A DNA stretch of 46,791 bases from a virus: IMG/VR virus record IMGVR_UViG_3300020478_000923, positions 1 to 46,791 of that record; one strand, 5' to 3'. A model generated the notes under the pieces. The model was not told where the DNA came from. It worked only from the letters and a program-made list of their open reading frames with translations, and searched no databases. This document shows, one piece after another, positions 3,114 through 46,791 of this stretch; within the stretch, counting starts at the first letter, position 1; each line of letters starts with the position of its first letter. The position numbers and the translations under genes are program-made.

Positions 3114-4019
3114 TTAGGTTAAATTAGAACCAGCGTCGTTGGCGTGAGTTGGTGTTGGAACCGAAACATTTACACCAGTTGCACGGAATTGAGAAACTAT
3201 ACTTGTAAGTGTACCTTTAACTGTTTCATCAACTGGAAAACCTGGATCTGTAGGATCATCATCATTAAAATTAATTCTAAATGTTAAAATATCAGGATTA
3301 ACTGCTACATTACCTTTTACTTCGATAATATAATGGTTTTCTGTATACTGCCCTGATCCTTGTTTATCAAAAATTGTTTGGTAAGTGGTAGTAACATCAA
3401 AATAACCAATGTTTGATCCTGTTCCTGATCCTGTTGCTGATGTGTCTGTATAATTAAATTTTACTGTTTGCATATTAGATAGTATTGTAGCCCAATTAAT
3501 TGTTTTAGCTTCAGTACCTGTAAATGCAATATTTGCCGAAAAACGAATTTCACCACCGGAGTTAAAAAAATGTCTGGCATGATTACTATCAGTAAATGAA
3601 ACATTTACTATATGATCAAGTTGACCATCCCATGGATTAGTATATTGACCTTGAACACCAGCTTCTGCTGTACCTTGGTTAACGTCAATTAAAAATCTTT
3701 CATTTTCAAGTGTAGTAGTTAAACTTTCATATTGGGCAACACCTTTTTTATTAACAGTATTACTATCTTCAATTACATCAGTTTGGACAATAAGAGCAAT
3801 ACTACTTGGTGCTAAATTTGTTTGGTGTTTTCTACCTGCTGAAAGATCGTCAAAAAGTAATGACATATGAGTTGCTGTAACTTTTTCGTTTGTAGCAACT
3901 TGTGAACTATTCAAGGATTGCCCGTATCCTTCATCACCTGATCCTGTACCCATAATTGTCGCAACACGACTTTGTAAATTGTTGTACCGTGCCGCTGTGA
4001 TTATATCACCAACTGCCAT
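3114..4019 (-). CDS. Putative virion protein of the tail-adhesin cluster, 301 aa
   Basis: The protein begins MAVGDIITAARYNNLQSRV and continues with a Gly/Ser/Thr-rich body made mainly of predicted beta-strands (for example IRFSANIAFTG, YFDVTTTYQTIFD), the composition of a phage tail or fibre component. I know of similar starts in marine T4-type phage structural proteins but cannot name a T4 counterpart. It lies 3 bases downstream of an adhesin gene, with AAAGGT about 8 bases before the ATG. There is no signal peptide, membrane segment or catalytic motif. It may be a fibre tip, a fibre-associated capping protein or a minor baseplate protein. The virion assignment rests on composition and neighbours. 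Confidence 0.7.
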   Translation of the reverse strand: MAVGDIITAARYNNLQSRVATIMGTGSGDEGYGQSLNSSQVATNEKVTATHMSLLFDDLSAGRKHQTNLAPSSIALIVQTDVIEDSNTVNKKGVAQYESLTTTLENERFLIDVNQGTAEAGVQGQYTNPWDGQLDHIVNVSFTDSNHARHFFNSGGEIRFSANIAFTGTEAKTINWATILSNMQTVKFNYTDTSATGSGTGSNIGYFDVTTTYQTIFDKQGSGQYTENHYIIEVKGNVAVNPDILTFRINFNDDDPTDPGFPVDETVKGTLTSIVSQFRATGVNVSVPTPTHANDAGSNLT

Positions 4020-4022
4020 AAT

Positions 4023-10065: not shown

Positions 10066-10073
10066 TATTTATT
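10066..10073 (-). promoter_or_regulatory. Late promoter match AATAAATA
   Basis: On the minus strand the run CTAAATAAATA contains AATAAATA, 7 of 8 bases of TATAAATA, about 19 bases before the 204-aa gene. It overlaps the final codons of the giant gene. It would give the adhesin block its own late transcript, independent of reading through 14.7 kb of upstream gene. Confidence 0.5.
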
Positions 10074-16000: not shown

Positions 16001-19000
16001 GCAACCATTGTTCCATCATCTGAAATTGCAACTGCATCTCCAAAGCCTATACCTGTTACAGGCGTTACTATTGCTTGGCTAAATTCATAATGTCCATTGT
16101 TTAATCTGTATATAAGAACTTTAGGATCACTATTAGTAAATTCGGCTACGACAGCTAAAACATTTCCATCTTTATTACTTGTAAATGTTTTACCAAAATT
16201 CTTTAATGTTGTTTGGTCTAGAACTGTTACACCGTCAACAACTAAACTAGTATCATTAGGAATATATCCTACATAATCTATATTAGTTGATAATTTTGTC
16301 CATACTGTTGGATTAAATGCACCAGGTGTTAAATTAGTTTTACTTTGATAAAAGAACTGTTGATATAAAACAATATCATTTTCATAATACGAATTAGAGA
16401 TATTAAACACACCTCTATAATTTTTATCTTTACCATACGCATAATCACACCCTGAGCCGTCAGGAGCAGTACCGTGATTAAAGAAGTATATTCTACCAGC
16501 ATTTCCTACTGTATTAATATCTTTAGTACTAACATATAAAGTATGTAACTCTTTATTTGTAGCCCAATGTACTTGAGTTCCAAATTCTTTATTGTTATTA
16601 TTATGCTCTGAAGTATATCCATAATTTAATGAATATTCACCATTGGCAGTTTTTTCATAAGTTAAAATTACTCCCTCATTAGTATATGTACTTGCTGTAC
16701 CGTTAGTATGTACAGGAATATTATATTTTTGTTTCCAATCCTTGTTTAGCGGTGTTGGATAATTTGGTGTTCTAGCAATTCCACTTACTGTACTACTTGA
16801 ATAAAAGTGTACTTCTAAGTCATTTTGAAACGTCGACGAAGTAACAGGTAACTGACTCGAATCCGTATTTTTAACAATAACCATTTTACCTGCAATCGAT
16901 GAATCCATATCGGCATGATCTAACCTCCCAGATAAGCGATTAACGCCTGGACTAATAGCATCTTTAATACTAATAGTACTAGTAGCACTATTATTATTTC
17001 CAAAGCTAAATGTACCTACCCTATTTTTTACATAAAGGCGACACGTTAATAATTGCTCTTGGAGATATGTTACTTCAGCTGTAGCACCAGTGGTGTCGTC
17101 AATAATAGTTTGACCTTCTTGTGGGATATAAGGATTCCCACTATTATCAAAATTTGTAAATGTAACATCAACAAATCCGTCCCATACATCATGTACTGTA
17201 TGAGATTTATTTAAATATGTAAATGGTAAACCTAATGAAACAGGATCAAATACTGAAATAGGTGCAACGCCACCTCTAATAGTATTAACCCACATTGTAA
17301 AAGTATCTGTTGCATTAAGAGTATCTGTAACTGCTTTTGGTCCTCTTATAAACCATAATTCACTTAAATTAGGTAAACCGTTTTTATCGTAATAACTTAA
17401 ATGTCCTAGTCTACCACCTCTTGATGGATCTGTAACAAGACTTAATGCACGAATATCATCTGATGTATTACCGAACAAAACAGGTGAACGTGATTCAGCT
17501 TGAGTAATAAAATCTTGTCCTACAAGATTTGGTACTGTAATTTCTTGAGCTGAAGTTACTGTAGTAGTAAATGAAGGAATACCATCAATTTTCCACCAGC
17601 CGCCAAATGTATCAGCCGCCGATGTTGGTTTAACCAATGTGAATGTTCCACAACTTTGAGCATTTAAATAAATTGTATCAGTGCTAGAAAATGCTCCGCT
17701 AACATCTCTCATGTAAATTATTGCTTGGCTAATATTTACAACCCTAATATATGCTACTTCACCGATTGCAGTATCAGACGATAATGCATCTCCAACTGAC
17801 GGAGTACGTATTAAATTGTCAACGTATAATACTGCATCGATCTTTTGTGCAATAACTTTTTGACCTTCAATTGCCGCAACACCCGGACCTGTAGAACCCC
17901 AAGGTAAAATACCTGTTGGATAATTTTGTGAAAATTCATTCCAATTAAGAACTAATTTATCACCTACAGCTGATCCATCATATTGTGCAACTGGGGCTCT
18001 AATTAACATATGATCTGTTGTAACATCTAACCCATAGTCACCTCTTATAGCATAAACTATATCTGGATATGAATTATTAACTGCATCATAATTAGCTTCT
18101 TCTATAAATGCTGTCGACCAATAACTAGGAAATGTTAATGCTCCAGTTGCCGCCGCAATTGGAAATTGTGCTTCCCAATATGCTTCTAAATATCTAACAA
18201 TCTCACCAGCAACATAAGATACTCCGCCATCAAAGTCACCTTTAAATTTAGTTTTTACATTACTTGCCTCCGGAGCACCAATAACTAAATGTTTTCCATC
18301 ATCAGTTAAAGCAATACTAGATCCGAACTTACCTGAACCTGTATAAAGATCCGTCGGTGCTTCAATTGTTTGCCTATGATAATAATTTACATTATCTGCA
18401 ACTCTATTAAAAACATGAACCTTTTCTTGTCCGACTGCAGATGCAATTAAAATAGTATTTCTATCATCAGTTGCAATCAACTGACCGAACTCGTGACCTT
18501 CACCTGTTTCTAAATTAGAAATAAATTGATGTGAACTATATGTTGGTTTATTTTGTAATACAGCCCATGTACCTGTATCGTCATTATCAACCCAAATTTT
18601 CTCACCATTCTGTAATTCACTATTAATAACTCTAGTATTTGCATCAAGCATTGTGGCAACTCTAGCAGAAGTAAATTTTGTAATAAATCCGTCAGCTGTT
18701 TCCACATCCGCAGTTGTACCATTTTCATAACAAATAATATTATCTAATGATACTTCTTTAACTTTGAAGAATTTTTCTGCACCAGTAACATCTAGAATAC
18801 CTACTATATCATCTTTACTATACCTAGCTTGTGTATTAACTTTAATTGTTGTTGTTTTAGCATCTTTATCTGAAGTTACAGATATAACTCGGTCAGTCGA
18901 TCTAATATACTTAAGAACATCCCAGGTAGTTTTCTTTGTTCCTACCCATATATACTCACCAACATTTAAAGATGACGTAGTTAAAGTTAAGATATCATCA

Positions 19001-22000
19001 AATTTTGCTACAGTTACTTTAACATCATCTTCATTAACATAACCTGCTGTTTCTATATATTCTACAGTTGTGGAACGTTTAGGAAACGGTTTATGTGTAT
19101 AATTGTTTGGTTTAAGATAAACTTCAAACGGACGTAGACGATAAATTAAATCAGTTTCAATACCTGTAACAGTATCAACTAGTTCAACTGGTTGAGGCGA
19201 TAATTTAAAATTAGCTTCGTCTAATTTAAATTCTACTTCTTCAAATCCATCTGCTGAGCCATACTGTCCTAACTTAACAGCCCATTCTTCGTAAAAATCA
19301 ATACTATCTTTCTCTGCACTACTTAAAGCATCAAACAATTTTGTTAAACTATTTTGTGTTCCTTTATCTTGAATATATCCTTGATAAAACTTATACTGAC
19401 TAACATCATCAGTAATAATATTTGAGAGATACGGTCTTTTTTGATACCCAATAAGGTGTTGTGCTATTTTTTGTTGTTCTGTATCAAAGTTATCAGTATC
19501 TAAATCATAATAATCTTTAAATTGTTTTGCTTTATAATCTAAATTCGGGATTAATTTAGAAGTTGGTTTTTCTGCTAATCTCTCCCATTTAGACGCATCA
19601 AAACTTTCTGTTCCAGGACTTTTTTCTGTAGCAACATAAAAGAACTCTTTATATTTTACTGTATCACCTAAAACATAATCTTTATAAGATTGCCATTCAT
19701 TAACAATTGCGTTATCATATATAAAGCCTGGAATATTTAAACTTCCTTTCCAGTCATCAGTTCTATAACCTAAAACTTTAATACGTTCTTGTCTATAACC
19801 AGGTTCTAAATCATAAACAATATCATTAAAAACTGTATGATTATCAATTAAACAAACGTGTTCTGTTTGTATTAATGGCAACTTAACAGCATAGATACCA
19901 TCAGCAGTATTTCGTGTAGTTATTTGAATTTCATTATCATTGTTTCTATAAACTTGGGTAAACTCTGGTTCTAACTTACGACCATCTGCTTTTAAAAGTG
20001 TAAAGTCATGAAAACTATCAAAAATATTGTCTGAAACAAAAAAATCTCTTTTAAATTTTAATCTATTACCTGCTGGACTTAACGTTATAACACTACCTTC
20101 TTTCCAGTTTTGTGTTGTCCAGAATAAAAATTCTTTAGCACTTATCTCCCAATTTTCAACTGCATTAATATCTTTATTAAAGAAGCTAAAATCAAATCCT
20201 TGTAATTCTAAATATTTTCCGTATCCTAGTAAAAAGTCAACAACTTCTTGAATACTTGTTAATAAGGCACCATAAGCTAGTTGTTTAGTACTTTCAAGTA
20301 TAGGCGGAGTAGTTTCAAATTGCCTTCTAAAGATTGCTTCTACGCCACCTGTTACAGGTAATTCAACTAACCTAGCAAAAAAATCTACATTAAATCCATC
20401 TGTACTAGTATGAGCTGTTTTAACTCTATAAAACTCATCACCAAACTGAACTGTTTGTCCAACTACATATACTTGATTTGCTTTCCATTCAAGAAAAGAA
20501 TCTGTAATACCACCTACTCTTGCAACAGGATCATCTGCTAGTTCAATAGCTTTAAGATATGTAAAGTAAGGATTAGATTTATCATAACCTTTTATAACAA
20601 AGCCTGCGGCTTTTTTTTCAATAATAACACCACTATAACTTACTAAATCTACTACCGAACTTTTATTTAAGAATATTTTATAGTTTTCATCAGGAACAAA
20701 AACATTACCTTCATTAAACGGAGTTCTACTATCTAATAATAATTTAAATTTCTCTTGGTGAGTAAATCCAGCAACTTTAAAACCTAATTGATTTTTTAAA
20801 GTTCTTAAGTCAGTTTTATATCCGTTCCAAGTACCTAATGATTCTGAATTAATATAATCACAAATATAATTAACTAATCCTGAAGTATTAACTCTAGTAG
20901 TATCGTTTGATACCATTGGAAAAACTATATCTTTTAATCTAAGTCTTTTATCTGTTTCACTATAAACAATTTCTTTAGCTGGATTTCTAATTATACGTGA
21001 TCTATCAAATCCTAATCCCATAATTTTAGTTGGCTGATTAAGGAGCCAACTACAAATAAATGCAAACGGATATTCACTACTTCTTCGCCAAGCTGTTTCA
21101 GTCGGTGCTTCGTCACCGAATATAAATTCTTTATTTGTAAAAACAAGAACATAATTTTTAGCATAGTTACTATCTAACGGACTTAATAATTTACCTTGTC
21201 CGTCAACAGGAATATGCTTTGTAATATCTTTTCTAGCATACGCGGCCAAATATTTTAATGCTTTGCCGGGTTCTCTAACTACACCATCTTCAATATCTTT
21301 CCATAAAATTTTATTTTCTCTAGTATACGGTGCTGGTCCATATACCGTTTTCCACCATTTTGGTTCAATAGTATAACCTAACATCTCCCAAGGATGAGTA
21401 TGCGGGCGATCAGTATCATATGCTTCTTTATAAATTGCTCGCCAATACCCTGGTAATTTTTTACCACTCGGCGATGTCATAGCACTATAATTAAATGTAA
21501 AGCTATTTGATCTTTCATAAAAATTATGATCTGTATAATCTAAATCACCAACATTAGATAACCAAGCTACAAAATCTGTAATTAATGCTTTATCTCTTGC
21601 CCATTTACTAAATCCTGTATCTCTTGATTCACCACCGATAAATTCATGTATATCTAGAATAGTTGGATCATATTGTAATTTAATATTATTATAAATTCTT
21701 TGTTCTAATTCTAATAATAAATCATCTCTAAAATCACCAAAGCAAACAAAAATGTTACCATCATGACCTTGAATTACTTCTGTTGGTGTTTGATAAGTGT
21801 TATCAATAAATTTCATAGGTTTATATTTTGGATATAAACCTAATTTAGTCGGTGTTGGCGGAATATAACTTCCGTCAGTACTTTTATATTCATAAATTTC
21901 TATAACATCATCAACTGCTTTAGTTGTTGTAACAGTTACAAAGCCTGGATGCTGAGTGTCAAATTTATAATCAATTCCTTCATGTAATTGTATTTTATTT

Positions 22001-24798
22001 TTATAGATATAAACTGCTCTATTAGATAATGTTGTTAAGTTAAAATCTGTTGACAACGCAAAGAATTGTGTATCTTTATCTTTTACAATATGCTTAACTG
22101 TAGAACAAGTTCCTAGGCCAATCATATCACTAAAATAAAATGGCATATCACTAGTTTTATTCTTAACTACTTCTGCCATTACTTTATCAAAATGAGCTAC
22201 TGTTTCTCCTTGGATGCCTGAAGTATTTGCTGTTTGCAGGAAAACCCTTCTAAATTTTCCGTATTCATTACTAGCATATCTAAGTGCTTTAATAATATTT
22301 GCGTTAGTATTAGTAATGTGGTATAAAGCAAGATCAACTTGCCCACTATGTTGTATAAAACGTCGACCATATGGCGTAATATTTCCGATGTCTCTTAAGT
22401 TATTCATGCCGGGCATTTGCCCTTTAAATTCATCGTTATATTCAGTCATTGATTGTACATGATCGTTTACTTCGCCTAAAGTAAAAGCAATCACATTATC
22501 ATTTAACGGATTTCGTTCTAAGTTATAAGGTATTTCATAATAACCTTTATTATTTTTCTTTGTAGCACTATGCGATATAATCTTAACTACATCATCTTTT
22601 ACTAATTTTTTAATAAAAGTAATATAAGCTATACCATTGATTCTATTAATTGAAAAATCTGTTAGGTTATACTTTCTTACATTATTAACATAAACCCTTA
22701 ACCATAAATCATTTAAATCCCCACTACGATTATAAACATCAACAGCAAAATCATTTGTTTGTGTTGAAACAACATATTGCCTTACTACATTCTGTCTACT
22801 GTCAGCAATAGCTTTAGTCCAACCTGATGTATATACAAAAGTATTAAGAGCAGAATAATCTCTCAACAATGTTATATCAGTATTTGCTTTGACTACTGCA
22901 TTGTTTTTTTGATAACTGTATTCTTCACTTAACAAATCAAAATTAAAAAGAATATCTCCTGAATTTTCTAATGCTCTATAACTTAATGAAAATCCTAGCT
23001 CTGGATCTTTAACATTACCAGCACCAAGTTTATAACTAAAAATTTTATTTCCAGTAAATGTTGTTGATGGATAATATGTTGTATTTGATAATGAATAACC
23101 GTTTTTATCAAACAGATCAAATAAAGGTGCTTGGTTTGTAGTAGTTTTATCTTGTCCGGCTTTCCACTTGGTTCCGTTATAATACCACATCTTACCTTTA
23201 TAAACATCACCGTTTCTAACTAATACAGTTTCATTCTCTAACGGAGTTGTATCTGTTGTTTCAATAAGACTGATTTGTCTTACTAAATTATGTGTAATAA
23301 ATTTAACTTTAAAAATTTTTCCGCTTACTCTACTATCAGGATCAGCAGTAAACAAGATACGCATATTATCAACAAGATCAATACCGTCAATATTATATCC
23401 TACTGCACCTTCAATATTTGAAAATACATCTTTAGTAAATGTATCTAATAAATCAATATCTTCTTTAGCACTAGTTCCAAAATTATATAATTTTATTCCA
23501 GCATCAAATTCAATGATAGGTCGTTTGGCTCTAAAATTTTGATCTAATTCAACTGGTGTTCCAGAAAGCGTTGCGGCTTTTTCAATTACTTCTCTATGAA
23601 ACCATCTATTATAACGTGACCATGGATTTCTACTTTTAGATGCTTTATTAACTACAAGATAATCTTTTACTCCTGCAAAACTATTAGCATTACTATACGG
23701 TAATCTATCAAACCCTACAGTATCAAAGGGTACAGGTTTATCTGTTGAATATGTAGCTGGTATTTCTAAATCTTTTTCATGGACTAACTTAATTTCAGTT
23801 CCAACACCTTCAACATACCATTCTCCTTCGGCATACTTTGCTGGTGTTACAGTTCCTTGAAAATAAACTTTCATACCGTTTGAGAAAGCTATTCCACCAG
23901 TACTTGTGTAAGTTTTTTTACCTAAAATTTCAGCTTCAACATCTATTGCTGTATTTTCAAATGCATCTGCAATTTGTATCAATCCACTTGCATTAATGTC
24001 ATTTCCATTTACATAATATAAAGTATCAGGAGCATTATCAGGAATTGTCCAAGTAATAGTCCCGATATCAACAGTTTGTGTACTATCATCAGTTCCTTTA
24101 GTAAACAATAAACTATTATCTAACGAACGTGCAGTTCTAAAAGTTAATGGCATACCAGGTGCATTAATCTCAAAAATATAAGTTTGCCCTCTATATAATT
24201 TTAATGTAGGATTAGATGTTAAACCGTCTGGTGTAAAAATATAACTATTATTGTCTATGTTATCTTTTTTAGTTACTTTATAAGTACTTGTAATATCTTT
24301 AGCTTGACCAACAATACCTATACCTATTGGACCATTTGGTAACCAATAATATTCTCTAAAGTTTGTAAACTTATCCCAATCAATATGGGGGTTCCAAGCA
24401 TAGTATTCTTGACTATTAAGTTTACTATGATCATCTACAGTACCGCCAAAGGCTCTTATTTGATTAATATAATCATTATAATCTTTATAAAAAGTAACAT
24501 TGTTTAGTTTATCTTTTACTACTGCCGCAGATTCTAATTGATAATTTTCTCGATCAGCACTATGTTCAGTAATATACGTATCGTTAGCCTTGTATGATTT
24601 GGCAGTATCACGGCCAAAATATCCGGCTAATTTTTCTGCTACACCCGGTTGTGTTAATTGATCTAATGTAGCGTTAAGAAACTTTTTATTTGTTATGGTA
24701 CGAAAGTATCTAGGAAGTAACTCCGCACTTTTCCTACGTGGGGGTGTTTTACCACCAGTTGGTAATGGATATTCATGTTGATCGTCAGTAAAAGGCAT
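10069..24798 (-). CDS. Giant baseplate/tail structural protein, 4909 aa
   Basis: One uninterrupted frame of 14.7 kb, overlapping the gp6 stop as TAATG. It occupies the place after gp6 where T4 has further wedge genes (7, 8, 10), so it may supply one or more of those functions, but I see no clear match to them. Rough layout: N-terminal 1-1400 with blocks such as FREYYWLPNGPIG and YTIEPKWWKTVYGPAPYT; four CBM5/12-like segments near 1446, 1713, 2198 and 2804; FG-GAP propeller-type blades between about 2105 and 3060 (KFGSSIALTDDGKHLVIGAP, GFGDAVAISDDGTMVAIGAP); GxGYxxPP glycine-rich repeats near 3499, 3863 and 3903; and from about 3960 to the end at least seven GDG(S/T)-type beta repeats. There is no signal peptide, membrane segment or protease motif. 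Predicted mass is above 500 kDa. Virion role is strongly inferred from context and composition. Confidence 0.85.
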   Translation of the reverse strand: MPFTDDQHEYPLPTGGKTPPRRKSAELLPRYFRTITNKKFLNATLDQLTQPGVAEKLAGYFGRDTAKSYKANDTYITEHSADRENYQLESAAVVKDKLNNVTFYKDYNDYINQIRAFGGTVDDHSKLNSQEYYAWNPHIDWDKFTNFREYYWLPNGPIGIGIVGQAKDITSTYKVTKKDNIDNNSYIFTPDGLTSNPTLKLYRGQTYIFEINAPGMPLTFRTARSLDNSLLFTKGTDDSTQTVDIGTITWTIPDNAPDTLYYVNGNDINASGLIQIADAFENTAIDVEAEILGKKTYTSTGGIAFSNGMKVYFQGTVTPAKYAEGEWYVEGVGTEIKLVHEKDLEIPATYSTDKPVPFDTVGFDRLPYSNANSFAGVKDYLVVNKASKSRNPWSRYNRWFHREVIEKAATLSGTPVELDQNFRAKRPIIEFDAGIKLYNFGTSAKEDIDLLDTFTKDVFSNIEGAVGYNIDGIDLVDNMRILFTADPDSRVSGKIFKVKFITHNLVRQISLIETTDTTPLENETVLVRNGDVYKGKMWYYNGTKWKAGQDKTTTNQAPLFDLFDKNGYSLSNTTYYPSTTFTGNKIFSYKLGAGNVKDPELGFSLSYRALENSGDILFNFDLLSEEYSYQKNNAVVKANTDITLLRDYSALNTFVYTSGWTKAIADSRQNVVRQYVVSTQTNDFAVDVYNRSGDLNDLWLRVYVNNVRKYNLTDFSINRINGIAYITFIKKLVKDDVVKIISHSATKKNNKGYYEIPYNLERNPLNDNVIAFTLGEVNDHVQSMTEYNDEFKGQMPGMNNLRDIGNITPYGRRFIQHSGQVDLALYHITNTNANIIKALRYASNEYGKFRRVFLQTANTSGIQGETVAHFDKVMAEVVKNKTSDMPFYFSDMIGLGTCSTVKHIVKDKDTQFFALSTDFNLTTLSNRAVYIYKNKIQLHEGIDYKFDTQHPGFVTVTTTKAVDDVIEIYEYKSTDGSYIPPTPTKLGLYPKYKPMKFIDNTYQTPTEVIQGHDGNIFVCFGDFRDDLLLELEQRIYNNIKLQYDPTILDIHEFIGGESRDTGFSKWARDKALITDFVAWLSNVGDLDYTDHNFYERSNSFTFNYSAMTSPSGKKLPGYWRAIYKEAYDTDRPHTHPWEMLGYTIEPKWWKTVYGPAPYTRENKILWKDIEDGVVREPGKALKYLAAYARKDITKHIPVDGQGKLLSPLDSNYAKNYVLVFTNKEFIFGDEAPTETAWRRSSEYPFAFICSWLLNQPTKIMGLGFDRSRIIRNPAKEIVYSETDKRLRLKDIVFPMVSNDTTRVNTSGLVNYICDYINSESLGTWNGYKTDLRTLKNQLGFKVAGFTHQEKFKLLLDSRTPFNEGNVFVPDENYKIFLNKSSVVDLVSYSGVIIEKKAAGFVIKGYDKSNPYFTYLKAIELADDPVARVGGITDSFLEWKANQVYVVGQTVQFGDEFYRVKTAHTSTDGFNVDFFARLVELPVTGGVEAIFRRQFETTPPILESTKQLAYGALLTSIQEVVDFLLGYGKYLELQGFDFSFFNKDINAVENWEISAKEFLFWTTQNWKEGSVITLSPAGNRLKFKRDFFVSDNIFDSFHDFTLLKADGRKLEPEFTQVYRNNDNEIQITTRNTADGIYAVKLPLIQTEHVCLIDNHTVFNDIVYDLEPGYRQERIKVLGYRTDDWKGSLNIPGFIYDNAIVNEWQSYKDYVLGDTVKYKEFFYVATEKSPGTESFDASKWERLAEKPTSKLIPNLDYKAKQFKDYYDLDTDNFDTEQQKIAQHLIGYQKRPYLSNIITDDVSQYKFYQGYIQDKGTQNSLTKLFDALSSAEKDSIDFYEEWAVKLGQYGSADGFEEVEFKLDEANFKLSPQPVELVDTVTGIETDLIYRLRPFEVYLKPNNYTHKPFPKRSTTVEYIETAGYVNEDDVKVTVAKFDDILTLTTSSLNVGEYIWVGTKKTTWDVLKYIRSTDRVISVTSDKDAKTTTIKVNTQARYSKDDIVGILDVTGAEKFFKVKEVSLDNIICYENGTTADVETADGFITKFTSARVATMLDANTRVINSELQNGEKIWVDNDDTGTWAVLQNKPTYSSHQFISNLETGEGHEFGQLIATDDRNTILIASAVGQEKVHVFNRVADNVNYYHRQTIEAPTDLYTGSGKFGSSIALTDDGKHLVIGAPEASNVKTKFKGDFDGGVSYVAGEIVRYLEAYWEAQFPIAAATGALTFPSYWSTAFIEEANYDAVNNSYPDIVYAIRGDYGLDVTTDHMLIRAPVAQYDGSAVGDKLVLNWNEFSQNYPTGILPWGSTGPGVAAIEGQKVIAQKIDAVLYVDNLIRTPSVGDALSSDTAIGEVAYIRVVNISQAIIYMRDVSGAFSSTDTIYLNAQSCGTFTLVKPTSAADTFGGWWKIDGIPSFTTTVTSAQEITVPNLVGQDFITQAESRSPVLFGNTSDDIRALSLVTDPSRGGRLGHLSYYDKNGLPNLSELWFIRGPKAVTDTLNATDTFTMWVNTIRGGVAPISVFDPVSLGLPFTYLNKSHTVHDVWDGFVDVTFTNFDNSGNPYIPQEGQTIIDDTTGATAEVTYLQEQLLTCRLYVKNRVGTFSFGNNNSATSTISIKDAISPGVNRLSGRLDHADMDSSIAGKMVIVKNTDSSQLPVTSSTFQNDLEVHFYSSSTVSGIARTPNYPTPLNKDWKQKYNIPVHTNGTASTYTNEGVILTYEKTANGEYSLNYGYTSEHNNNNKEFGTQVHWATNKELHTLYVSTKDINTVGNAGRIYFFNHGTAPDGSGCDYAYGKDKNYRGVFNISNSYYENDIVLYQQFFYQSKTNLTPGAFNPTVWTKLSTNIDYVGYIPNDTSLVVDGVTVLDQTTLKNFGKTFTSNKDGNVLAVVAEFTNSDPKVLIYRLNNGHYEFSQAIVTPVTGIGFGDAVAISDDGTMVAIGAPLQDEVETNNGAVYVYRLVSGSFIWSQTLYSPENDVAERFGATIDFDKNNLAVSSRGGDLISTTTFDANTTVLPTSWDNNLTNFKTANEDSGQVLIFQRFNNTLLYSEKFVYNNPVTRRFGDIILFTDNHVYVSMPELTITTGNNYQGTIIDFRRERNVLSWQKLRYPLDQINVSQFKGVFVYDTAKNLLASQIDYIDPIQGKVAGAAEEEISYKTLYDPATYTVGGTNVVVDEGSAWGQDKVGRIWWDLSTVKYHNPYQGSIIYQTATWNKLFKGASIDIYEWVETTLKPSQWSTLADTEEGLAQGISGQPKFTDDSVLSSIKVFNKQAQSFSTKYFYWVKNKKHIPNVEWRKTSAFDVAQLIEDPKAQGYKFAALYSDNRFALYNCESLFNAENSAVNFRYWTIDNYTNIHNEYQLISEGLATSRPKADVEAKWWDSLVGWDKKYRAVPDTELSPKERYGALNRPRQSWFVNRLEAVKQLIERVNRIIKKEILVDEYNIESLKQVDPLPTIHSGKFDQSVDTYAEIVFVGTANVKQAVLTPIWKNGRLDRVEITDPGRGYKVPPTYEFAKVGNGRGAELIITLDTLGKISTVTVKHPGRDYATTTVLTVRKYSTLVKADENINGKWSLHTYNTTTMAWERTDSQSFNVPDFWDYADWYAPGYNEFTNITYLINESYQLTALEDNIGDIIKIKNIGSGGWLLLRKVNTVADVDYTTNYETIGREKGTIQFSSGLYNYPVWNIGYDSLSYDTSDYDNQPVQEFRIILEALRDDIFVNDLAVEYNKLFVSSLRYVLSEQRMIDWGFKTSFLKARHNIGELAEKVTFQNDNLPSYEKFVEETKPYKTKIREYLTSYTKLDKTNSVVTDFDLPPAYDIQAGKIIPPSLKVKDDALYGVDPGLVNYPNRHWKDNLGYEVVMMQIKDGGTGYLEPPVITLTGGGGTGAKAQAYIGTGGKITWIKMTSVGKGYLSAPTVSINGTQSEGGKPAVLSAKLGNGKIRNAHIISKFDRVTGTFLITTLEETETFTGNASQQTFSLKWPMDLRPAQIYITVSGIESLTSEYTFKNVAENTKGYTRYKGEITFTEPPKNLASIVIKYSKDVNMLQAQDRINLFYKPTDGQLGNDIAQLMDGIDYGGVEVRSFDFGGGAGWFSQPWFTSTWDTFDNTYEDEVFTLDGSTNVFALSKPLENGVTYNVYKNGVRVDDPQWDGSTIGVIGNPNAVMESIVGDGTTQTIHLNEELIPTVANDVIIIRKATSDGSFIPDPDAYDTALQGGDLTYSTAKGILSEEIVVDGDGFVTPLTSKGPEELVPGQIMDTVDFKVYDRTADGSSIINSNNYIGDGTNKNFSIDQLPSSNEDIFVKVDGTILKAPTGFTINYKLKRVEFVTAPASGKVVHISTFSNNGEKVLDLDTFIGDGSTTQFVTPVVYKTGLSYTLTVDGETVQTDLSETDSTFETKNRAVFKLGTIPNDGAVIQYAIYESSAKAFSQITTDSFTGNGVNKEFTLSQTPFTSEPTSQNIIVRVGNKFLDAGINQQFKVISTREYQLRQWQVSTATISAENVRVFLNGVEQALNTTWRWDTFNGAVVLNTDVGNTGDTLEVFVIDSGAYQMGYFDSGTSLFVKTPNKVYLDTAPTNGDVVTVYQFSKHDIRKIEREVFDVVARNAVTIGTDSYTEYHQLTNGIIRLREEAIDAHYVWVTLNQVALTPSVDYYVTDDRKHIRIVVDIDANDKIEIIHFTNPVIIPKFGFRIFKDMLNRTHYKRLGDSNKYTLAEDLNWYDSKIIVTNYDSLPLPNKDKGIPGILFVNGERIEYYLKEGGAIRQLRRGTLGTGIAEKHSKGSDVFDQSPPQTMPYKDEILTQVFTADGSTKAITVDFVPKSVNDFEIFVAGKRLRKNAISSFDKTVDLDSPEADVTLPAEFSVDGTTSTVTMLNTPPINSKIIVVRKLGRTWTDSGVPLHRQENNIGRFLRSKEVTLPK

Positions 24799-34519: not shown

Positions 34520-34542
34520 AAGACTTTACTATGGAGAAATAC

Positions 34543-35409
34543 ATGAGAAAGGTGAACTATTTAAACAACCGAGATCTACTAGCAGAGATCCATAAATCAA
34601 AAAATACATTTTGTAGTTACACAGATGACGATTTTAATCAATTTGATATAATTTTACCTACTATTGAAAAAGTTAATATACGGACAATAGCTGAAGCAAA
34701 GCGAAATAGGGCTAAAAGAATAGGCCAAAAAGCATACGAAGAGCGTAAAGCTAACGGTGAAAAAGTTAAACAAGCTGATTGTGAAATAGATTATAAAAAA
34801 ATCAATAAAACTGATGTCATCTTCAGAATTATGACATATGATCATATACCCGACGATAAAGGGCGTAAAAAGAAGCCAAAAACAGTTGCTGATACTAAAG
34901 AAAAATTAAACTTTCCACCTTTCCAACATTATAAGTTTAATGAAGCAAATGATTTAGTATGTATTGGCAAAAGCCATTGGGTTGGGGGCATGGATAACGG
35001 CTACTTTGATAAAACTTGCGGACAAGCAACCGAAAAACTGGCAATGATGTGGATGAAATTATGTGAACGATACGCAACTAGAGGAAATGTAAGAGGATAT
35101 ACATATAATGACGAAATGAAAGGTCAAGCAATCTTACAACTTGCTCAAATAGGATTGCAATTTGATGAATCAAAATCAAATAACCCATTTGCATATTATA
35201 CTGCCGCAGTTACAAACTCATTCGTTAGAATTATTAACATCGAAAAACGTAATCAAAACATTAGGGATGATATTTTAGAAATGAACCACATGAATCCATC
35301 ATTCACAAGGCAGAATCAAGGAGTTTGGGAACGTGAACAAGCTGAACATAATAAAAATTGGGAAAAGAATGCGAAAAACACTTCGAAAAAACAGAAAGTT
35401 GACAAATAG
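34543..35409 (+). CDS. gp55: Late-transcription sigma factor gp55
   Basis: gp55 is the phage sigma factor that directs host RNA polymerase to TATAAATA late promoters. The N-terminus KVNYLNNRDLLAEIH matches T4 YNYVNNKELLQAI, and the sigma-2-like core GNVRGYTYNDEMKGQAILQL, IGLQFDESKSNNPFAYYTAA and IINIEKRNQ matches T4 SGYTQSWKQEMIADGI and KNPHAYIT. A segment of about 135 residues (about 20-155) is inserted between them, including PPFQHYKF and GKSHWVGGMDNG; I recall similar insertions in cyanophage gp55. The start at 34543 is preferred over an ATG 12 bases earlier because GGAG then lies at the usual 7-base spacing. It gives 288 aa against 185 in T4. It is transcribed from a sigma70-type promoter just upstream. 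Confidence 0.9.
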   Translation: MRKVNYLNNRDLLAEIHKSKNTFCSYTDDDFNQFDIILPTIEKVNIRTIAEAKRNRAKRIGQKAYEERKANGEKVKQADCEIDYKKINKTDVIFRIMTYDHIPDDKGRKKKPKTVADTKEKLNFPPFQHYKFNEANDLVCIGKSHWVGGMDNGYFDKTCGQATEKLAMMWMKLCERYATRGNVRGYTYNDEMKGQAILQLAQIGLQFDESKSNNPFAYYTAAVTNSFVRIINIEKRNQNIRDDILEMNHMNPSFTRQNQGVWEREQAEHNKNWEKNAKNTSKKQKVDK

Positions 35410-40127: not shown

Positions 40128-42926
40128 ATGAAACTGCAAGAAGTTTTTGCCTATAATTTAAAAACCCAACACATATTAAATGAAAGTTGGGACACACTTA
40201 CAGAAAGCCAACGCATTTATCTTGGCAAAGCAGAACGTGAGCTATGGCCATTAATGGAACAGCTTACAAAAGTCTTTGAAGCAGAGCTTACCGCAGATCA
40301 AATTCAAACAATTTTCAAAAATGCTGAAACCCATGCAATGGATTCAGGCACAAACAGAACTGCACTAGGTAAAGCAGGCGATGTAGCAAAACTTCCTGTC
40401 AAATTAATGAAGGATCTTAATGATAAGATTAACGAACTTGGTAGAGCGGCACAACAAACTGGCCCTGTTCAAAACATAGATAAAAAGTTTGAAGAGTTAA
40501 AAAACAAAATTGGATCTAAAGATGCAAAAATCGTTCAAGGTGTTAAAGCAGTTAGCGATTGGGCAAAAGCAAATCCGGGTAAGGCAAGTTTAGCAGTAGC
40601 TATCTTAACAGCCGCGGCGGCGTTTGCCACTGGTCCAGCCGGCGGTGCGGCAGTAGGTTTCTTATTACGTGGCACTAGAGATTTATTAAAAGGTGAAAAA
40701 CTTTCAACAGCGACAGGTAAAGCAACTAAGATGGCGGCAGTTGGTGCAGGTATAGGTGCCCTTGGAGATGCTATTAGTGGAATGTTACCTGGAGAAATTT
40801 CAAATACATTTATTAACGATGCCTCAGGCGAAATTGATGTAACAAAATTATCTGCCATGGATGCAACTAGTATGGCAGACCTTGATGCTACTGCGGCCAA
40901 CGAACTTATACAAACACAAGGCGCGATGCAAGAATTAATGCGATCACATGATCTTGATGCAGAAGCAAAAGAAATTCTTCAAGGTCAATGGGAACAAGTT
41001 AATGCTAAGATTATTGAACTCAATGGCGGTGGAAATGTAGTTGATGGCATTGACAATATGCAAGCCGAATTTGACATTGAAGGCACAGGTGCTAATATTG
41101 AAAAAACAACCTCAGGTTCAGAGATAGACGGATCTGAAATAGATGCAACTGAAGTTACAGCCGAATTAAGTGCAAGTGAACTTAATGATTTAGGTATTAA
41201 TTCAGCTGACTTTCCTGATAACGAATGGTTAACACAAAATACACAAAAGTTTCTTGATGCTGGTATGACACAAGAACAAATTGATGCACTACAAGATGTA
41301 CAAGGATTTGAAAGAGCAATAGCTAATAAAGAATTTATGGGTACAAATATTTCATCAGAGATGACATCTGAAATATCAACTGACAATATAAAAGTTGACG
41401 GTATTCCAGATGACATAAAAGTTGGTGAAACCTTTAAATCAGAGGTCTCAAAAACATTTGAGGACGGAACTGTATACAGTGGTTATGTAACAACAGAAAT
41501 TACAGGTGTTGATGCTAACGGCAATGCTGTATACAAACTAGTAGATGTACAAACAACGACGAATCCAATGAGTGATGAATTATCTAAGGCATTAGATGCT
41601 CTACCTGAAGAAATGCAAGATGAATTATTTGATAAAGTACTGAATACTGGTATAGCATCGGGTTCAATGGAAACAGCAATTGACAACACGACAGCAAATA
41701 TTGTTAAAGCGTCGGCGGCAGTTGGAATCGGGGCAGGACTTGCAAAAGCAGATTTAAAATCCCAGGAGCCTAAAAAAGGTGATCAAACCGAATTTGATTT
41801 TAGCAAAAAAGATACCCCACAAGAAGCATATAAACGAGACTTACACAGAATGTTAGCAGAATTAGGTGTAAAAAAAGAGCCTGCATCAGGAACACAGACG
41901 GATATGTTTAAAGATGCCGGATTAGAAGATCCTAATACACTAGGTGCTAAAGCAAAAAGAGGCTTAGGTGCGGCAGGTAAATGGGCTAAAGGTAAAGTAG
42001 CAAGTGGAGTAGCTGGCGTTAAACAAGGTATGAAAGATGCAGGAAACAAAGTTACTGCTAACAAACTTAACAAAGCCTGGCAAAAAGCAGGATCACCGAT
42101 GGACACAGGATCTATTGTTAATATATTAGCTGATGCAGGATTAAGCAACGATGATATAACAGCAATTGGAACAAATACTAAAGTTGATTTACCACCACCA
42201 ACAACTAAAAAAGATCCAGAAGGTGTCAAACCTAACCAAGGAGCAGATAACGGAATTGAGAACGGAACTAAAGCAGATGCGTCTGATGGTCAAGAATATA
42301 CTCAGCAAGGTGGAGAATGGCTTGACCCAAATAACAAAAAAGCAACACCTGAGATAGAAAAAGAATTAGATGCACAAGTGGCAACACCTACTGATAACGA
42401 AACAGTTCCATCAGATGGCGGACAAGCTGGTGCAGAAGCAGGTACTCCTACTCCAAAAGGTACAAAGGTAACAGACCCAGAGAGCAAGAGAGAATTTACA
42501 GCGGACGGAAATGGTGGTTGGACCCATCCTAATTTTGGGAATGTAGGACCTGACCATCCGCTTAACAAAAAACTAAATGCAATAGCGGGATCTAAAGCAG
42601 ATCCTACTAAAGCAGGTGCAGAAGCAGATCCTACTAAAGCAGATCCTAAAACAGATACTGGTGCAGAACCAGAAGCAGGTGCAAACGCTGGAGCAACACC
42701 AACAGCAGGTACAGATAAAACTGTAAATGATTTAGCAAACGCAATTACAAAAGCAGGTGTTGGAGATGAGGTTAAAGCACAATTACAAGGTGGTGGAACA
42801 GCAGAACCAGAAGCAGGTGGTGAAGTTAATTTACCACAACTTGCAACAGATCTTTCCAAAGCCGGCGTACAAAAAATAGCACGTGATCAATTAGTAAAAC
42901 AGCAGACCGCTGATTACATGACTTAA
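40128..42926 (+). CDS. Large putative virion protein with hydrophobic segment, 932 aa
   Basis: Begins MKLQEVFAYNLKTQHILNES, again with a T4 internal-protein-like start and a possible gp21 site (LNE|S at Glu19). Residues 150-180 are a hydrophobic, Ala/Gly-rich stretch (LAVAILTAAAAFATGPAGGA) that could cross a membrane, followed by another Gly/Ala-rich segment to about 225. The middle is acidic with repeated ADGxxYxG-type elements (TFEDGTVYSGYVTTEITG). The C-terminal third is Ala/Pro/Glu/Thr-rich low-complexity DNA with repeats such as ADPTKA. A protein packaged in the head and ejected with DNA would fit, but a tail role cannot be excluded. The stop overlaps the end of the convergent frameshift gene by two bases. 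Confidence 0.75.
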   Translation: MKLQEVFAYNLKTQHILNESWDTLTESQRIYLGKAERELWPLMEQLTKVFEAELTADQIQTIFKNAETHAMDSGTNRTALGKAGDVAKLPVKLMKDLNDKINELGRAAQQTGPVQNIDKKFEELKNKIGSKDAKIVQGVKAVSDWAKANPGKASLAVAILTAAAAFATGPAGGAAVGFLLRGTRDLLKGEKLSTATGKATKMAAVGAGIGALGDAISGMLPGEISNTFINDASGEIDVTKLSAMDATSMADLDATAANELIQTQGAMQELMRSHDLDAEAKEILQGQWEQVNAKIIELNGGGNVVDGIDNMQAEFDIEGTGANIEKTTSGSEIDGSEIDATEVTAELSASELNDLGINSADFPDNEWLTQNTQKFLDAGMTQEQIDALQDVQGFERAIANKEFMGTNISSEMTSEISTDNIKVDGIPDDIKVGETFKSEVSKTFEDGTVYSGYVTTEITGVDANGNAVYKLVDVQTTTNPMSDELSKALDALPEEMQDELFDKVLNTGIASGSMETAIDNTTANIVKASAAVGIGAGLAKADLKSQEPKKGDQTEFDFSKKDTPQEAYKRDLHRMLAELGVKKEPASGTQTDMFKDAGLEDPNTLGAKAKRGLGAAGKWAKGKVASGVAGVKQGMKDAGNKVTANKLNKAWQKAGSPMDTGSIVNILADAGLSNDDITAIGTNTKVDLPPPTTKKDPEGVKPNQGADNGIENGTKADASDGQEYTQQGGEWLDPNNKKATPEIEKELDAQVATPTDNETVPSDGGQAGAEAGTPTPKGTKVTDPESKREFTADGNGGWTHPNFGNVGPDHPLNKKLNAIAGSKADPTKAGAEADPTKADPKTDTGAEPEAGANAGATPTAGTDKTVNDLANAITKAGVGDEVKAQLQGGGTAEPEAGGEVNLPQLATDLSKAGVQKIARDQLVKQQTADYMT

Positions 42927-43153
42927 AAGAAAGGCAAATGAGTCTTTTTAGTCGTTTCCATATTAGATTTAATTAATCTCACAAACTGTTCTCGATCTTC
43001 ATAACTCGAAGCATACATTTCGTCAAGGGTTACACCTCCACGCATATACCAGCAATACTGAGCTAGTTCATATCTCATTTGCTTTGCCTCGTTATCTAAG
43101 TCTGCGACTTGTCTTAGGATTTCATCAAGAGGTAATGTTGAAATCCTTACGCG
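42923..43153 (-). CDS. Frameshift extension of gp26 (tail-assembly chaperone T-type domain)
   Basis: A 76-codon open frame in the -1 frame to gp26, ending TAA. Reading from 43153 it gives RVRISTLPLDEILRQVADLD, then MRYELAQYCWYMRGGVTLDE, then EDREQFVRLIKSNMETTKKT and HLPFF. It is a compact helical, charged protein. The frame is opened by a TGA inside the gp26 end and has no ATG, GTG, TTG or CTG in its first 30 codons, so it cannot easily start by itself. Fused to gp26 by a -1 shift it would give about 387 aa. The N-terminus of a downstream T domain is what the lambda gpGT precedent predicts. The coding character is good (clean amphipathic helices, conserved-looking PFF end). An ATT start is the only alternative. 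Confidence 0.75.
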   Translation of the reverse strand, partial: RVRISTLPLDEILRQVADLDNEAKQMRYELAQYCWYMRGGVTLDEMYASSYEDREQFVRLIKSNMETTKKTHLPFF

Positions 43154-43162
43154 AAAAAATTT
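43116..43162 (-). promoter_or_regulatory. Programmed -1 frameshift signal
   Basis: On the minus strand the gp26 codons read TCA AAT TTT TTC GCG TAA. AAATTTTTTC (43153-43162) holds two overlapping canonical slippery heptamers, A AAT TTT and T TTT TTC, both in the gp26 frame. A 5-base spacer GCGTA follows, then AGGATTTCA (43139-43147) pairs perfectly with TGAAATCCT (43116-43124) across a 14-base loop. Heptamer, 5-9 base spacer and stem-loop are the standard parts of a bacterial or viral -1 frameshift site. The stop codon of gp26 lies in the spacer and first stem base. Confidence 0.8.
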
Positions 43163-44085
43163 GACTGATCAAAAGATACAGGAACTTCGTAATGAGCGTT
43201 AGCACCCTGTTTTAGTTCTTCCTCAGTAGCATCCATCTTAATAGGTTCTAGAACAAATTTATTTCGTTCAACTTCTAGATGATTTACAATTGCAGTATAG
43301 AATTCTCTATCAGCATTTGCAATAAATTCTTCAATATGCTTTCTATCTACAACAATTTGATCTCCAACTTGAATTTGTACAATTGCATTTGTTACAGTCT
43401 CAACAGTTATACCTGTTAACTTTACAAAAGACTCATTAAATTTTACAAGTTTTTCTTCATCGTTCATATCAGTATTGTTAACTGTGGCAAATATTCTTTG
43501 TTCTTCAAAAGTTTTAATTGCAGTTTTTGTAAACTCTCTATAGTTTGAAGGACGTATAGTAATTTTCATATCGCTATGCGTTAACACATTTTGAAAGTCA
43601 ACACCAGAAAATTTATCAATTACTCTTCTTAAATCTAAATCAAAAGTCTTTTCGATTACAGGATCAGTACCTGGAACTTTAGTAGTTAATTCTAATTTTT
43701 CACCATAAGTTGCCATTCTAATAGCGACTAGAATTGTATCTAAATCAATACTTGGTATATTCCAAGGATCTTTAATAGCTGGTATACAGCTTTTAATAAC
43801 TTCTACAGTTGCTTGTCCATTTAATAATGCATCTGGCGTTTTAAAGACAAGCTCGTCTTTTGCCGTCATTGCATATACAGGCACTTCTTTATTTTCGGGC
43901 ATTTCTAATGCACCAATAGGATAAAAAGCACCTTTACTAGGTAAAGATATATAAAGTTTAGGTTGTCTAAAATATTTTTGTAGTGGATTAGACTGAGCCA
44001 CTTGAGGTTGGTTTCCACCAGGAGAAAGAGGTGTTGTCTGTGGTCCTACTGGAATACTCCCCGGCATTGTTATTTGATTAGCCAT
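43147..44085 (-). CDS. gp26: gp26-type baseplate hub protein, zero-frame product
   Basis: 312 aa of the T4 gp26 family. The core shows LYISLPSKGAFYPIGALEMP, VYAMTAKDELVFKTPDALLN, QATVEVIKSCIPAIKDPWNI and PSIDLDTILVAIRMATYGE. The family is described as a hub subunit/assembly protein. Here it sits directly opposite the tape-measure gene, the place of tail-assembly chaperones, and its last codons form a frameshift site that would add a 76-aa extension. I infer a chaperone-like role for the pair. T4 gp26 is 208 aa, so this protein has an extra 100 residues. It starts behind CCGGAG and an exact TATAAATA late promoter. Confidence 0.88.
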   Translation of the reverse strand: MANQITMPGSIPVGPQTTPLSPGGNQPQVAQSNPLQKYFRQPKLYISLPSKGAFYPIGALEMPENKEVPVYAMTAKDELVFKTPDALLNGQATVEVIKSCIPAIKDPWNIPSIDLDTILVAIRMATYGEKLELTTKVPGTDPVIEKTFDLDLRRVIDKFSGVDFQNVLTHSDMKITIRPSNYREFTKTAIKTFEEQRIFATVNNTDMNDEEKLVKFNESFVKLTGITVETVTNAIVQIQVGDQIVVDRKHIEEFIANADREFYTAIVNHLEVERNKFVLEPIKMDATEEELKQGANAHYEVPVSFDQSNFFA

Positions 44086-44155: not shown

Positions 44156-46791
44156 ATGGTAGAAGTAACATATCGTGGCGGGAATATGGATGGTATTACT
44201 AGTAATGCCGCCTCTGAAGCCACTCTCGAATTGCTAGTAAAAGCTATGTCCGCCAAGGGCGGTGGCAGTGGTGCTCAAGGTTTATATAATAAAGCCCAAA
44301 AAACAGGCACAGCTGAACTGAAGAAAATGGCAAAAGCCCAAAAAGAGGCTACTGCCGGTAAACAAGCCGAAACAAAAGCAACACAAAAAGTTACCAAAGA
44401 ATTAGGATTTTTTAGAAAAGGTCTGAATACAGCTATAACGGCTATGAACAATGCGTTCGCAGGTATAGGCGGTGCGGCTGGAGGCATGGTTAAAGAAGTA
44501 TTTGGTGCCGGTACTAACTTATCAGACTTTTCACGACACTTAACAGGATTAGCAAAACAATTTCCAATAGTTGGTGGAATGGTTGGGGAATCAGCTCAAG
44601 CCTTAGTAAGTGTTATTGACAAACAAATTGATGTAACTAGACAAATAAACCAAGTTGGCGGTAATTTAGGTGAAGGCTTATTTGGCACACAATTAGCCGC
44701 GGCAGAGGCAAGAATGAGTATAGATAGTTTTGCCGCATTAATGGGTTCCCAATCTAAAAACCTTTCAGCAGTCTTTGGTGGTGCCACAGCAGGTATGCAA
44801 CAATTCGCAGGGGTTATGAAACAAGTAAAAACAATGGACAAACAGTTTGCCGCTTTAGGTTATACTGTTGATGAACAAGCAGAATATACTGCTGAATATC
44901 TTGATTATGCTAAAGCACAAGGTTTACTAGAAGGCAGAAATAATAGACAACTAGCCAAAGGTGCTCAAGATTATATGTTGCAATTAGATCAGTTAACAAA
45001 AATTACTGGTATGTCAAGAAAAGAGGCCGCGGCGGCGTTAAAAGCACAAGCTGATGATAAACGATTAACAGCAATTTTACACAACATGGACGAAGGAACC
45101 AAAGCAAACTTAAATGCCGCACTAGCCCAAGTTGGCAATTTAAGTCCTGAAATGGGTGATGCAATGGCAGAACTTGTCGCTACTGGTGGTGTGCCGATTA
45201 GTGATATGGGTAAATCAATGATGCTATTGAATCCTAGACTAGGTGAGATGGCTAAAGGATTAAAAGATGGAAGTGTAAGTCAAGAAGCATTTGCAGATGA
45301 AATTAAACGTAGTCAAGAACTGGCTAAACATAGAATGAAAACTGAAGAAGGAGTAATTTCAGCTAGTTTGGCTATGGGTGATAAAACACACTTGGCAACT
45401 ATAGCTATGGCACAAACAGGTAAAGTTGGTGGTGATTTAGCTAAAGCACAAGAAGATCAAAAAAAGCAAATGGAAGATGAGCAAAAACAAGTAATGAACT
45501 TCCAACAAGTTATTGTTGATTTGCGTAACACTATTATGAAAGAATTAATTAACAGTAAAATCTTTGACGAAGTTGTAAAAGTAATTGGAGATGTTACAAC
45601 TTGGATAGGTAGTGAAGAAGGTATGATGAAAATTAAAAGCATCATAAAAAGCGTAACTGATGGAATATCAGGAATGATTACTTGGCTAAAAGAAACAGAT
45701 TTTGGAAAACTATGGGACGACAATGTTAAAAAACCTCTTGAAAATCTTAAAGGTTTGCTTCCTGACTGGGTCAAAAATATGATTTTTGGTAAAGGTGAAA
45801 AAAATGCGGCAGTTGAAAAAGCTAAAACAGAACGTGCAAACTGGAAAGAAATTGAAAAAGAAATGGAAAGCATGGGTGTTACTAGTAAGAGAATGGCTGA
45901 CGGCACAATTGTAACATTAGATGAGGTTAAAGCTAAAATTGTTGGCTTTGATAAAGAAATAGCAGATGCTGAAGGTGGTGAAGGTTGGTTTAAAACATTA
46001 TCAGATAACATTTGGTTAGTAGGCGGAGCAGTTGCGGCCGTACTTGCCACAGGGATGATAATTCCTGTTGCTCTCTTAGGATTGGCCCTTATATTAAAAG
46101 CATTTGCTAATGGTCCAACGGCAATTGGAGCGGCAGTTCTTGCAGGATTGTTTATTGGTACTGGGTATGCTATTAATCTTGCAGGTGAAGGAATTAAAAA
46201 TGCTGGTGCAGGAGTTGATGCCGTTGCGAAAGCAATGAAAGACTTGTCTGAAATTAAAAATGTTGCTAATCTAAAAGAGATGGCTGGCATAATGGGCGAC
46301 TTGTCAGGAGCATTATTAAAATTTGCTATAGGTGGAAAAATAGCAGAGTTAATGGATGCAAAAGCATTACCAAATTTAGCAGAATCACTTAAAGCATTTG
46401 AAAGTGTTAATGCGTCAGCACTTGCTCAAGTTGGTCCAGGGATAGCGGCACTATATGAAGGTACAAGTAAATTTACTGGTGACGGTGCTTGGGAAGGTTT
46501 TTCTAAATGGGTCGGTAGCTTATTCGGAGGTGATAATAACTTCGAACAAATGGCTGAAGGCATTAAAAACTTTGAAGGCATTGATGGTACCAAACTAGCA
46601 AACTTAGGTGAAGGCTTAGGCGGCATAGCTGAATTTGTTAATAGTATTAATGCCGCTTCAGATCTTGACAAGCAAGTAAAAGCTGTTAAAAAATTGGTTG
46701 AAGTAATGGAAGATTATACCAAACAGTATAATAAAATGAGCGGAGATATGCAATCTAGTTTCAATATGGCAGTAAACAATTCCGGAAAAGA
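44156..46791 (+). CDS. Tail tape-measure protein, N-terminal part (runs off window)
   Basis: At least 878 codons, open to the window end. Tape-measure proteins set tail length and pass into the cell during DNA injection. The sequence is long, Ala/Gly/Lys-rich and helical (AELKKMAKAQKEATAGKQAE), with a strongly hydrophobic region at about residues 617-680 (GAVAAVLATGMIIPVALLGL, then AVLAGLFIGTGYAI) that could form membrane segments, as in many tape measures. It is next to gp26 and its frameshift extension, in divergent orientation. The T4 counterpart would be gp29. The ATG at 44156 is chosen because MVEVTYRGGNMDG starts the frame; the ribosome-binding site is weak (TTGGG). Confidence 0.83.
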   Translation, partial: MVEVTYRGGNMDGITSNAASEATLELLVKAMSAKGGGSGAQGLYNKAQKTGTAELKKMAKAQKEATAGKQAETKATQKVTKELGFFRKGLNTAITAMNNAFAGIGGAAGGMVKEVFGAGTNLSDFSRHLTGLAKQFPIVGGMVGESAQALVSVIDKQIDVTRQINQVGGNLGEGLFGTQLAAAEARMSIDSFAALMGSQSKNLSAVFGGATAGMQQFAGVMKQVKTMDKQFAALGYTVDEQAEYTAEYLDYAKAQGLLEGRNNRQLAKGAQDYMLQLDQLTKITGMSRKEAAAALKAQADDKRLTAILHNMDEGTKANLNAALAQVGNLSPEMGDAMAELVATGGVPISDMGKSMMLLNPRLGEMAKGLKDGSVSQEAFADEIKRSQELAKHRMKTEEGVISASLAMGDKTHLATIAMAQTGKVGGDLAKAQEDQKKQMEDEQKQVMNFQQVIVDLRNTIMKELINSKIFDEVVKVIGDVTTWIGSEEGMMKIKSIIKSVTDGISGMITWLKETDFGKLWDDNVKKPLENLKGLLPDWVKNMIFGKGEKNAAVEKAKTERANWKEIEKEMESMGVTSKRMADGTIVTLDEVKAKIVGFDKEIADAEGGEGWFKTLSDNIWLVGGAVAAVLATGMIIPVALLGLALILKAFANGPTAIGAAVLAGLFIGTGYAINLAGEGIKNAGAGVDAVAKAMKDLSEIKNVANLKEMAGIMGDLSGALLKFAIGGKIAELMDAKALPNLAESLKAFESVNASALAQVGPGIAALYEGTSKFTGDGAWEGFSKWVGSLFGGDNNFEQMAEGIKNFEGIDGTKLANLGEGLGGIAEFVNSINAASDLDKQVKAVKKLVEVMEDYTKQYNKMSGDMQSSFNMAVNNSGK

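Follow-up and report, generated by a model that had tools for sequence, protein, structure and literature searches.

The window analysed here is a 46,791-nucleotide (nt) stretch of viral DNA (IMG/VR record IMGVR_UViG_3300020478_000923, positions 1 to 46,791), which carries on its minus strand a gene, gp26, that ends in a candidate site of programmed −1 ribosomal frameshifting. The gp26 gene (43147–44085, minus strand) encodes 312 amino acids (aa) and, from Pfam, phrog and AlphaFold2 results, is the putative short tail-assembly chaperone (TAC-N). Its product matches the Pfam family PF12322 (T4_baseplate) with an E value of 3.1e-10 and 40.6 bits, against a curated cut-off of 24.5, and phrog_150 (baseplate hub) with an E value of 2.9e-14. 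Read on the minus strand, the gene ends GAT CAG TCA AAT TTT TTC GCG TAA, in which two in-frame heptamers overlap: A AAT TTT (43156–43162) and the slippery heptamer T TTT TTC (43153–43159), with TTT and TTC as its zero-frame codons. The stop codon TAA (43147–43149) follows one codon past the slip. The final C of the heptamer is also the first base of a nearly invariant Arg codon in the −1 frame, which continues for 76 codons to a TAA (42923–43153, minus strand). The predicted −1 fusion (42923–44085, minus strand), in which base 43153 would be read twice, comprises 387 aa (311 + 76) and would be the long chaperone (TAC-NC), the equivalent of T4 gp51.

The first ATG of the −1 frame stands at codon 26 after the slip, where a 51-aa open reading frame (ORF; 42923–43078) begins, and ATG, GTG and TTG are absent from the 25 codons before it. 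Downstream of the heptamer, after the 5-nt spacer GCGTA, lies a 9-base-pair (bp) hairpin (43116–43147, minus strand), a candidate stimulator consisting of the arm AGGATTTCA (43147–43139), a 14-nt loop and the arm TGAAATCCT (43124–43116); the 55 nt that follow the slip have a folding-energy z score of −3.8. An earlier reading of this DNA, made from its letters without database searches (the sequence-only reading), had described the two in-frame heptamers at the gp26 end, the spacer with its 9-bp stem and 14-nt loop, the 76-codon frame to TAA and a fusion of about 387 aa, and all of these are borne out. It had also counted 30 start-free codons, a figure that the ATG at codon 26 reduces to 25.

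Protein similarity, either to gp26 or to the −1 frame, was the basis on which relatives were selected; presence of the slip was not a criterion. Direct similarity searches with the −1 frame among phage records returned few isolates (three in one search and eight in another), so wider relatives were gathered through gp26 similarity and the Pfam profile. The main set, drawn from T4-like phages of the marine and jumbo groups, comprises the window plus 90 related loci; these 91 sequences collapse to 57 distinct ones, and the set includes the isolates Phosso, Atu_ph07, MIJ3, 121Q, Vibrio 2.275.O, BF, XaC1, RaK2 and XbC2. An in-frame TTTTTTC followed by a −1 frame open for 72–79 codons from the slip is present in 90 of the 91, and the sole exception (L035) is cut at the slip by its contig end. 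The slippery run, whose conservation the sequence-only reading had proposed to check, is invariant in all 57 distinct sequences, and the zero-frame stop in relatives lies 1–11 codons beyond it. Homopolymer runs are the usual spot for indels, and an assembly or sequencing error could in principle create an apparent frame break within a single continuous gene; the same break recurs in finished genomes of isolates as well as in dozens of independent contigs from metagenomes, which refutes this explanation and leaves it a negligible probability.

Codon usage at the slip supports a constraint on its bases rather than on the protein. Across 53 aligned gp26 proteins, the final two Phe residues are always encoded by TTT (53/53) and TTC (53/53), whereas the other near-invariant residues with synonymous codons all use mixed codons (top codon, 33–86%). 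The codon 5′ of the Phe pair specifies any of eight amino acids (N, S, H, R, D, Y, A or L), and its third base is always T. With 29 clusters (60% identity) taken as independent, this pattern has a log10 P of about −8.5, a value that is indicative and not exact because the clusters are mutually related. As background, T_TTT_TTC occurs in 8 of the 123 Phe-Phe pairs of the same loci. The overlapping A AAT TTT is probably dispensable for slipping, because the bases 5′ of the T run differ among relatives. These data bear also on transcriptional slippage, in which RNA polymerase would add a base within the run of six to eight T and ordinary ribosomes would then read the −1 frame. The homopolymeric nature of the site, which reaches eight T in HTVC008M, is what such a mechanism would use; however, a purely transcriptional site would need no particular phase and would favour longer runs, whereas an exact in-phase X XXY YYZ with TTC as its last codon is found in 57 of 57 distinct sequences, and several clades have stems downstream of the slip. 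We therefore regard transcriptional slippage as highly improbable.

The peptide encoded in the −1 frame is conserved from the slip onwards. Across the 57 distinct sequences the tail is homologous, α-helical and 70–77 aa long, and its conserved motif FFR..LL.. starts at the slip itself, including in BF, XaC1 and RaK2, in which gp26 extends 6–11 codons past the slip. ATG is absent within 14 codons of the slip in 48 of the 57, and ATG, GTG and TTG are all absent over that distance in 32. Non-canonical starts near the gp26 stop (ATT and TTA) were set aside, as the start of the conserved peptide lies upstream of them.

A Pfam search of eight records places this arrangement among other T4-like phages. 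P-SSM2, S-PM2, HTVC008M, phiM12, W-14, KVP40 and RAS14 each have one PF12322 gene, and T4 has two. The single genes of P-SSM2, S-PM2, KVP40 and W-14 end with TTTTTTC followed by an open −1 frame, and those of HTVC008M, phiM12 and RAS14 have runs of seven to eight T, likewise followed by an open −1 frame. In T4 gene 26 the slip is absent, TTC TTT GAG stands in its place, and the −1 frame is closed there. T4 gp26 and gp51 (3303–3929 and 3980–4729 of the T4 record, L093) are PF12322 paralogs that match the whole profile, and gp51 has about 48 extra residues. A profile built from the −1 tails of cyanophages, KVP40 and jumbo phages matches T4 gp51 with an E value of 1.8e-6 when run against a set of 12 sequences, and does not match gp26. 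The profile of window-type tails matches the RAS14 tail (4e-14), the HTVC008M tail (2e-6) and, weakly, T4 gp51 (0.02), so that the window tail is joined to gp51 through intermediates. Existing annotations agree: the small frame is called gp51 in P-SSM2 and baseplate hub assembly catalyst in HTVC008M, and the KVP40 annotators recorded its resemblance to a 40-aa stretch at the C terminus of T4 gp51. Together these matches support a correspondence between the −1 tail and the C terminus of T4 gp51, as the sequence-only reading had rightly guessed in calling the frame gp51-like, and the correspondence in turn points to gp26 as the short and the fusion as the long tail-assembly chaperone.

The alternative closest to these annotations treats the 76-codon frame as a small gene in its own right ('gp51' or hypothetical), whose translation would start by coupled re-initiation close to or at the gp26 stop and yield no fusion. 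It is annotated as a separate gene in P-SSM2, KVP40, HTVC008M, 121Q, BF and others, and an ATGA or TAATG overlap would also place it in the −1 phase. However, the window and 32 of the 57 sequences have the start-free stretches described above, the conserved peptide begins upstream of any start, the constraint on the slip bases would serve no need, and in T4 gp51 the same two parts form one continuous protein. We consider re-initiation improbable. The sequence-only reading had named ATG-started small genes in relatives as evidence against frameshifting; such genes are indeed annotated in KVP40 and 121Q, but both phages keep the heptamer and in both the peptide starts upstream of the ATG.

The hairpin of the window is shared by its immediate clade. 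The six basal pairs form in all 17 sequences of this clade and one of them covaries (U-A, U-G and C-G), whereas the three loop-proximal pairs decay. The compensatory change that the sequence-only reading had looked for in the stem is thus present at one pair, but the stem is a feature of the clade and not of the relatives at large. It is plausibly a clade-specific stimulator and not a universal element, and part of its conservation may be due to coding. P-SSM2 and S-PM2 each form their own strong stem after the slip, and elsewhere the downstream structure is weak. A search for upstream Shine–Dalgarno-like stimulators found a tetramer in just 2 of the 57 sequences of the window's group; such elements are visible in cyanophages. 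In P-SSM2 (L101) and S-PM2 (L102), GGAGGG precedes the slip by about 10 nt and 11–14-bp stems follow it, a set of stimulators that resembles that of dnaX, whereas the window lacks the upstream part.

AlphaFold2 models the window gp26 as an α/β protein (predicted local distance difference test (pLDDT) score, 85.8) and the extension as all-α (pLDDT, 88.9). Among viral predicted structures, the gp26 model matches mainly T4-type baseplate hub assembly proteins, and a fold search with the extension model returned no confident match. Weaker matches to the gp26 fold are uncharacterised proteins of about 430–690 aa in the jumbo phages Erwinia Special G and phiEaH2 and Ralstonia RSF1 and RP12, which, judging by the predicted models, may be unrecognised tail-assembly chaperones.

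The invariant heptamer, the conserved −1 peptide that starts at the slip and the matches to gp26 and gp51, all seen at the level of sequence, support the G/GT-type −1 frameshift that the sequence-only reading had proposed, and we consider it very probable that the locus is a tail-assembly chaperone gene from which programmed −1 ribosomal frameshifting yields two products. The majority of ribosomes would translate gp26 and stop at its TAA, and a minority would move one base back at U UUU UUC and read the 76 further codons, probably aided in the window's clade by the hairpin 5 nt downstream. The long product would consist of the gp26 part and the α-helical extension; by homology, the counterpart of gp26 would be T4 gp26, and that of the fusion T4 gp51. 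If the pair acts as lambda gpG/gpGT do, the tape-measure protein would be coated by the short product, and tube subunits would be brought in by the long one.

Several points weigh against this interpretation. We infer both the occurrence and the efficiency of slippage from the sequence signature. An ATG overlaps the gp26 stop in KVP40, 121Q and Phosso, so independent initiation may also take place there. A search for a stem shared by every relative was negative (median z, −0.38 over the 57), and in the window's clade covariation is limited to one of nine stem pairs. A fold search of the gp26 model against the PDB gave no match at E ≤ 0.001, and so no solved chaperone; a fold shared with solved chaperones, looked for by sequence as well as by fold, was not found.

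The surrounding genes fit a T4-type myovirus, with a baseplate wedge, a hub with lysozyme, a late sigma factor and an SbcC-like exonuclease nearby. A divergent gene on the plus strand (44156–46791), which runs off the window, is tape-measure-like, a function assigned from comparisons. In about 40 related loci a homolog faces gp26 head to head, in other loci a long ORF without a match takes its position and orientation, and the RaK2 gene at the equivalent place is annotated as similar to tail tape measure; in HTVC008M, a putative tape-measure gene lies downstream and is co-directional. The sequence-only reading had placed the frame beside the tape-measure gene: a tape-measure-like gene is adjacent, but it lies head to head with gp26 and not downstream. 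On the other side, a convergent gene of 932 aa (40128–42926, plus strand) has a stop that overlaps that of the −1 frame, and four related loci (L015, L017, L020 and L034) likewise have a convergent ORF with its end at that point. Further away, the T4-type late sigma factor (34531–35409, plus strand; phrog_12791, E value of 6e-74) suggests T4-like late transcription. Adjoining the baseplate wedge gene is an ORF of 4909 aa (10069–24798, minus strand), whose product carries a module of the chitin-binding type (CBM_5_12) as well as an FG-GAP repeat and is probably a giant adhesin or a protein of the tail fibres.

A broader reading, which we hold to be evenly balanced, is that −1 frameshifting is ancestral for the gp26/gp51 pair across T4-like phages (including marine, cyanophage, rhizobial and 280–490-kb jumbo phages), that the T4 clade became the exception through gene duplication, and that in the window's lineage, where the chaperone gene faces its tape measure head to head, the ratio of short to long form is set by the slip alone, uncoupled from tape-measure translation. 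It would frame the two-gene arrangement of T4 as the exception and make the replacement of a recoding event by gene duplication directly testable. In many genomes of cyanophages and jumbo phages, the small 'hypothetical' or 'gp51' genes beside gp26 most likely represent the C terminus of a frameshift product and not separate genes, and annotations across a large and abundant group of viruses would be corrected.

The sequence-only reading knew of no description of such a shift in T4-type phages, but at second hand one already exists. A passage of the PRFect paper (PMC10885494) cites Vladimirov, Gautam and Davidson (2022, Virology 566:9-15) as the source for some T4-like phages having distinct genes for the short and the long chaperone; from the sequence comparison above, these would be genes 26 and 51. 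The same study is credited, in a passage of the Adele paper (PMC12846349), with poly-T frameshift signals in T4-like TAC-N genes. Given the credit in that passage, the novelty of the present signal is modest.

Among known systems, the E/E+E′ genes of P2-type phages represent a chaperone frameshift of the lambda gpG/gpGT kind, and the lambda slip heptamer is unlike T TTT TTC. In both lambda and P2-type phages the tape-measure gene is located downstream and co-directional, whereas the tape-measure-like gene of the window is divergent. The lambda proteins gpG and gpGT are the short and long tail-assembly chaperones (PMC5009743). In the Vandenendeviridae and Andersonviridae, a poly-T slip (GTTTTT) lies near the end of the TAC-N gene and the −1 frame is open in every genome (PMC12846349); these families resemble the window in both respects but differ in having the tape-measure gene directly downstream and not divergent. 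Within the T4-like phages, the extension of the marine and jumbo clade is longer (70–77 aa) than that of cyanophages, HTVC008M and KVP40 (about 57–63 aa), and in most marine members it ends NMETTKKTG.PFF. T4 itself has two full, divergently transcribed genes, 26 (short) and 51 (long), whereas the window has one gene and a slip; like the predicted fusion, T4 gp51 combines a PF12322 domain with a tail at its C terminus that is related to the −1 extension.
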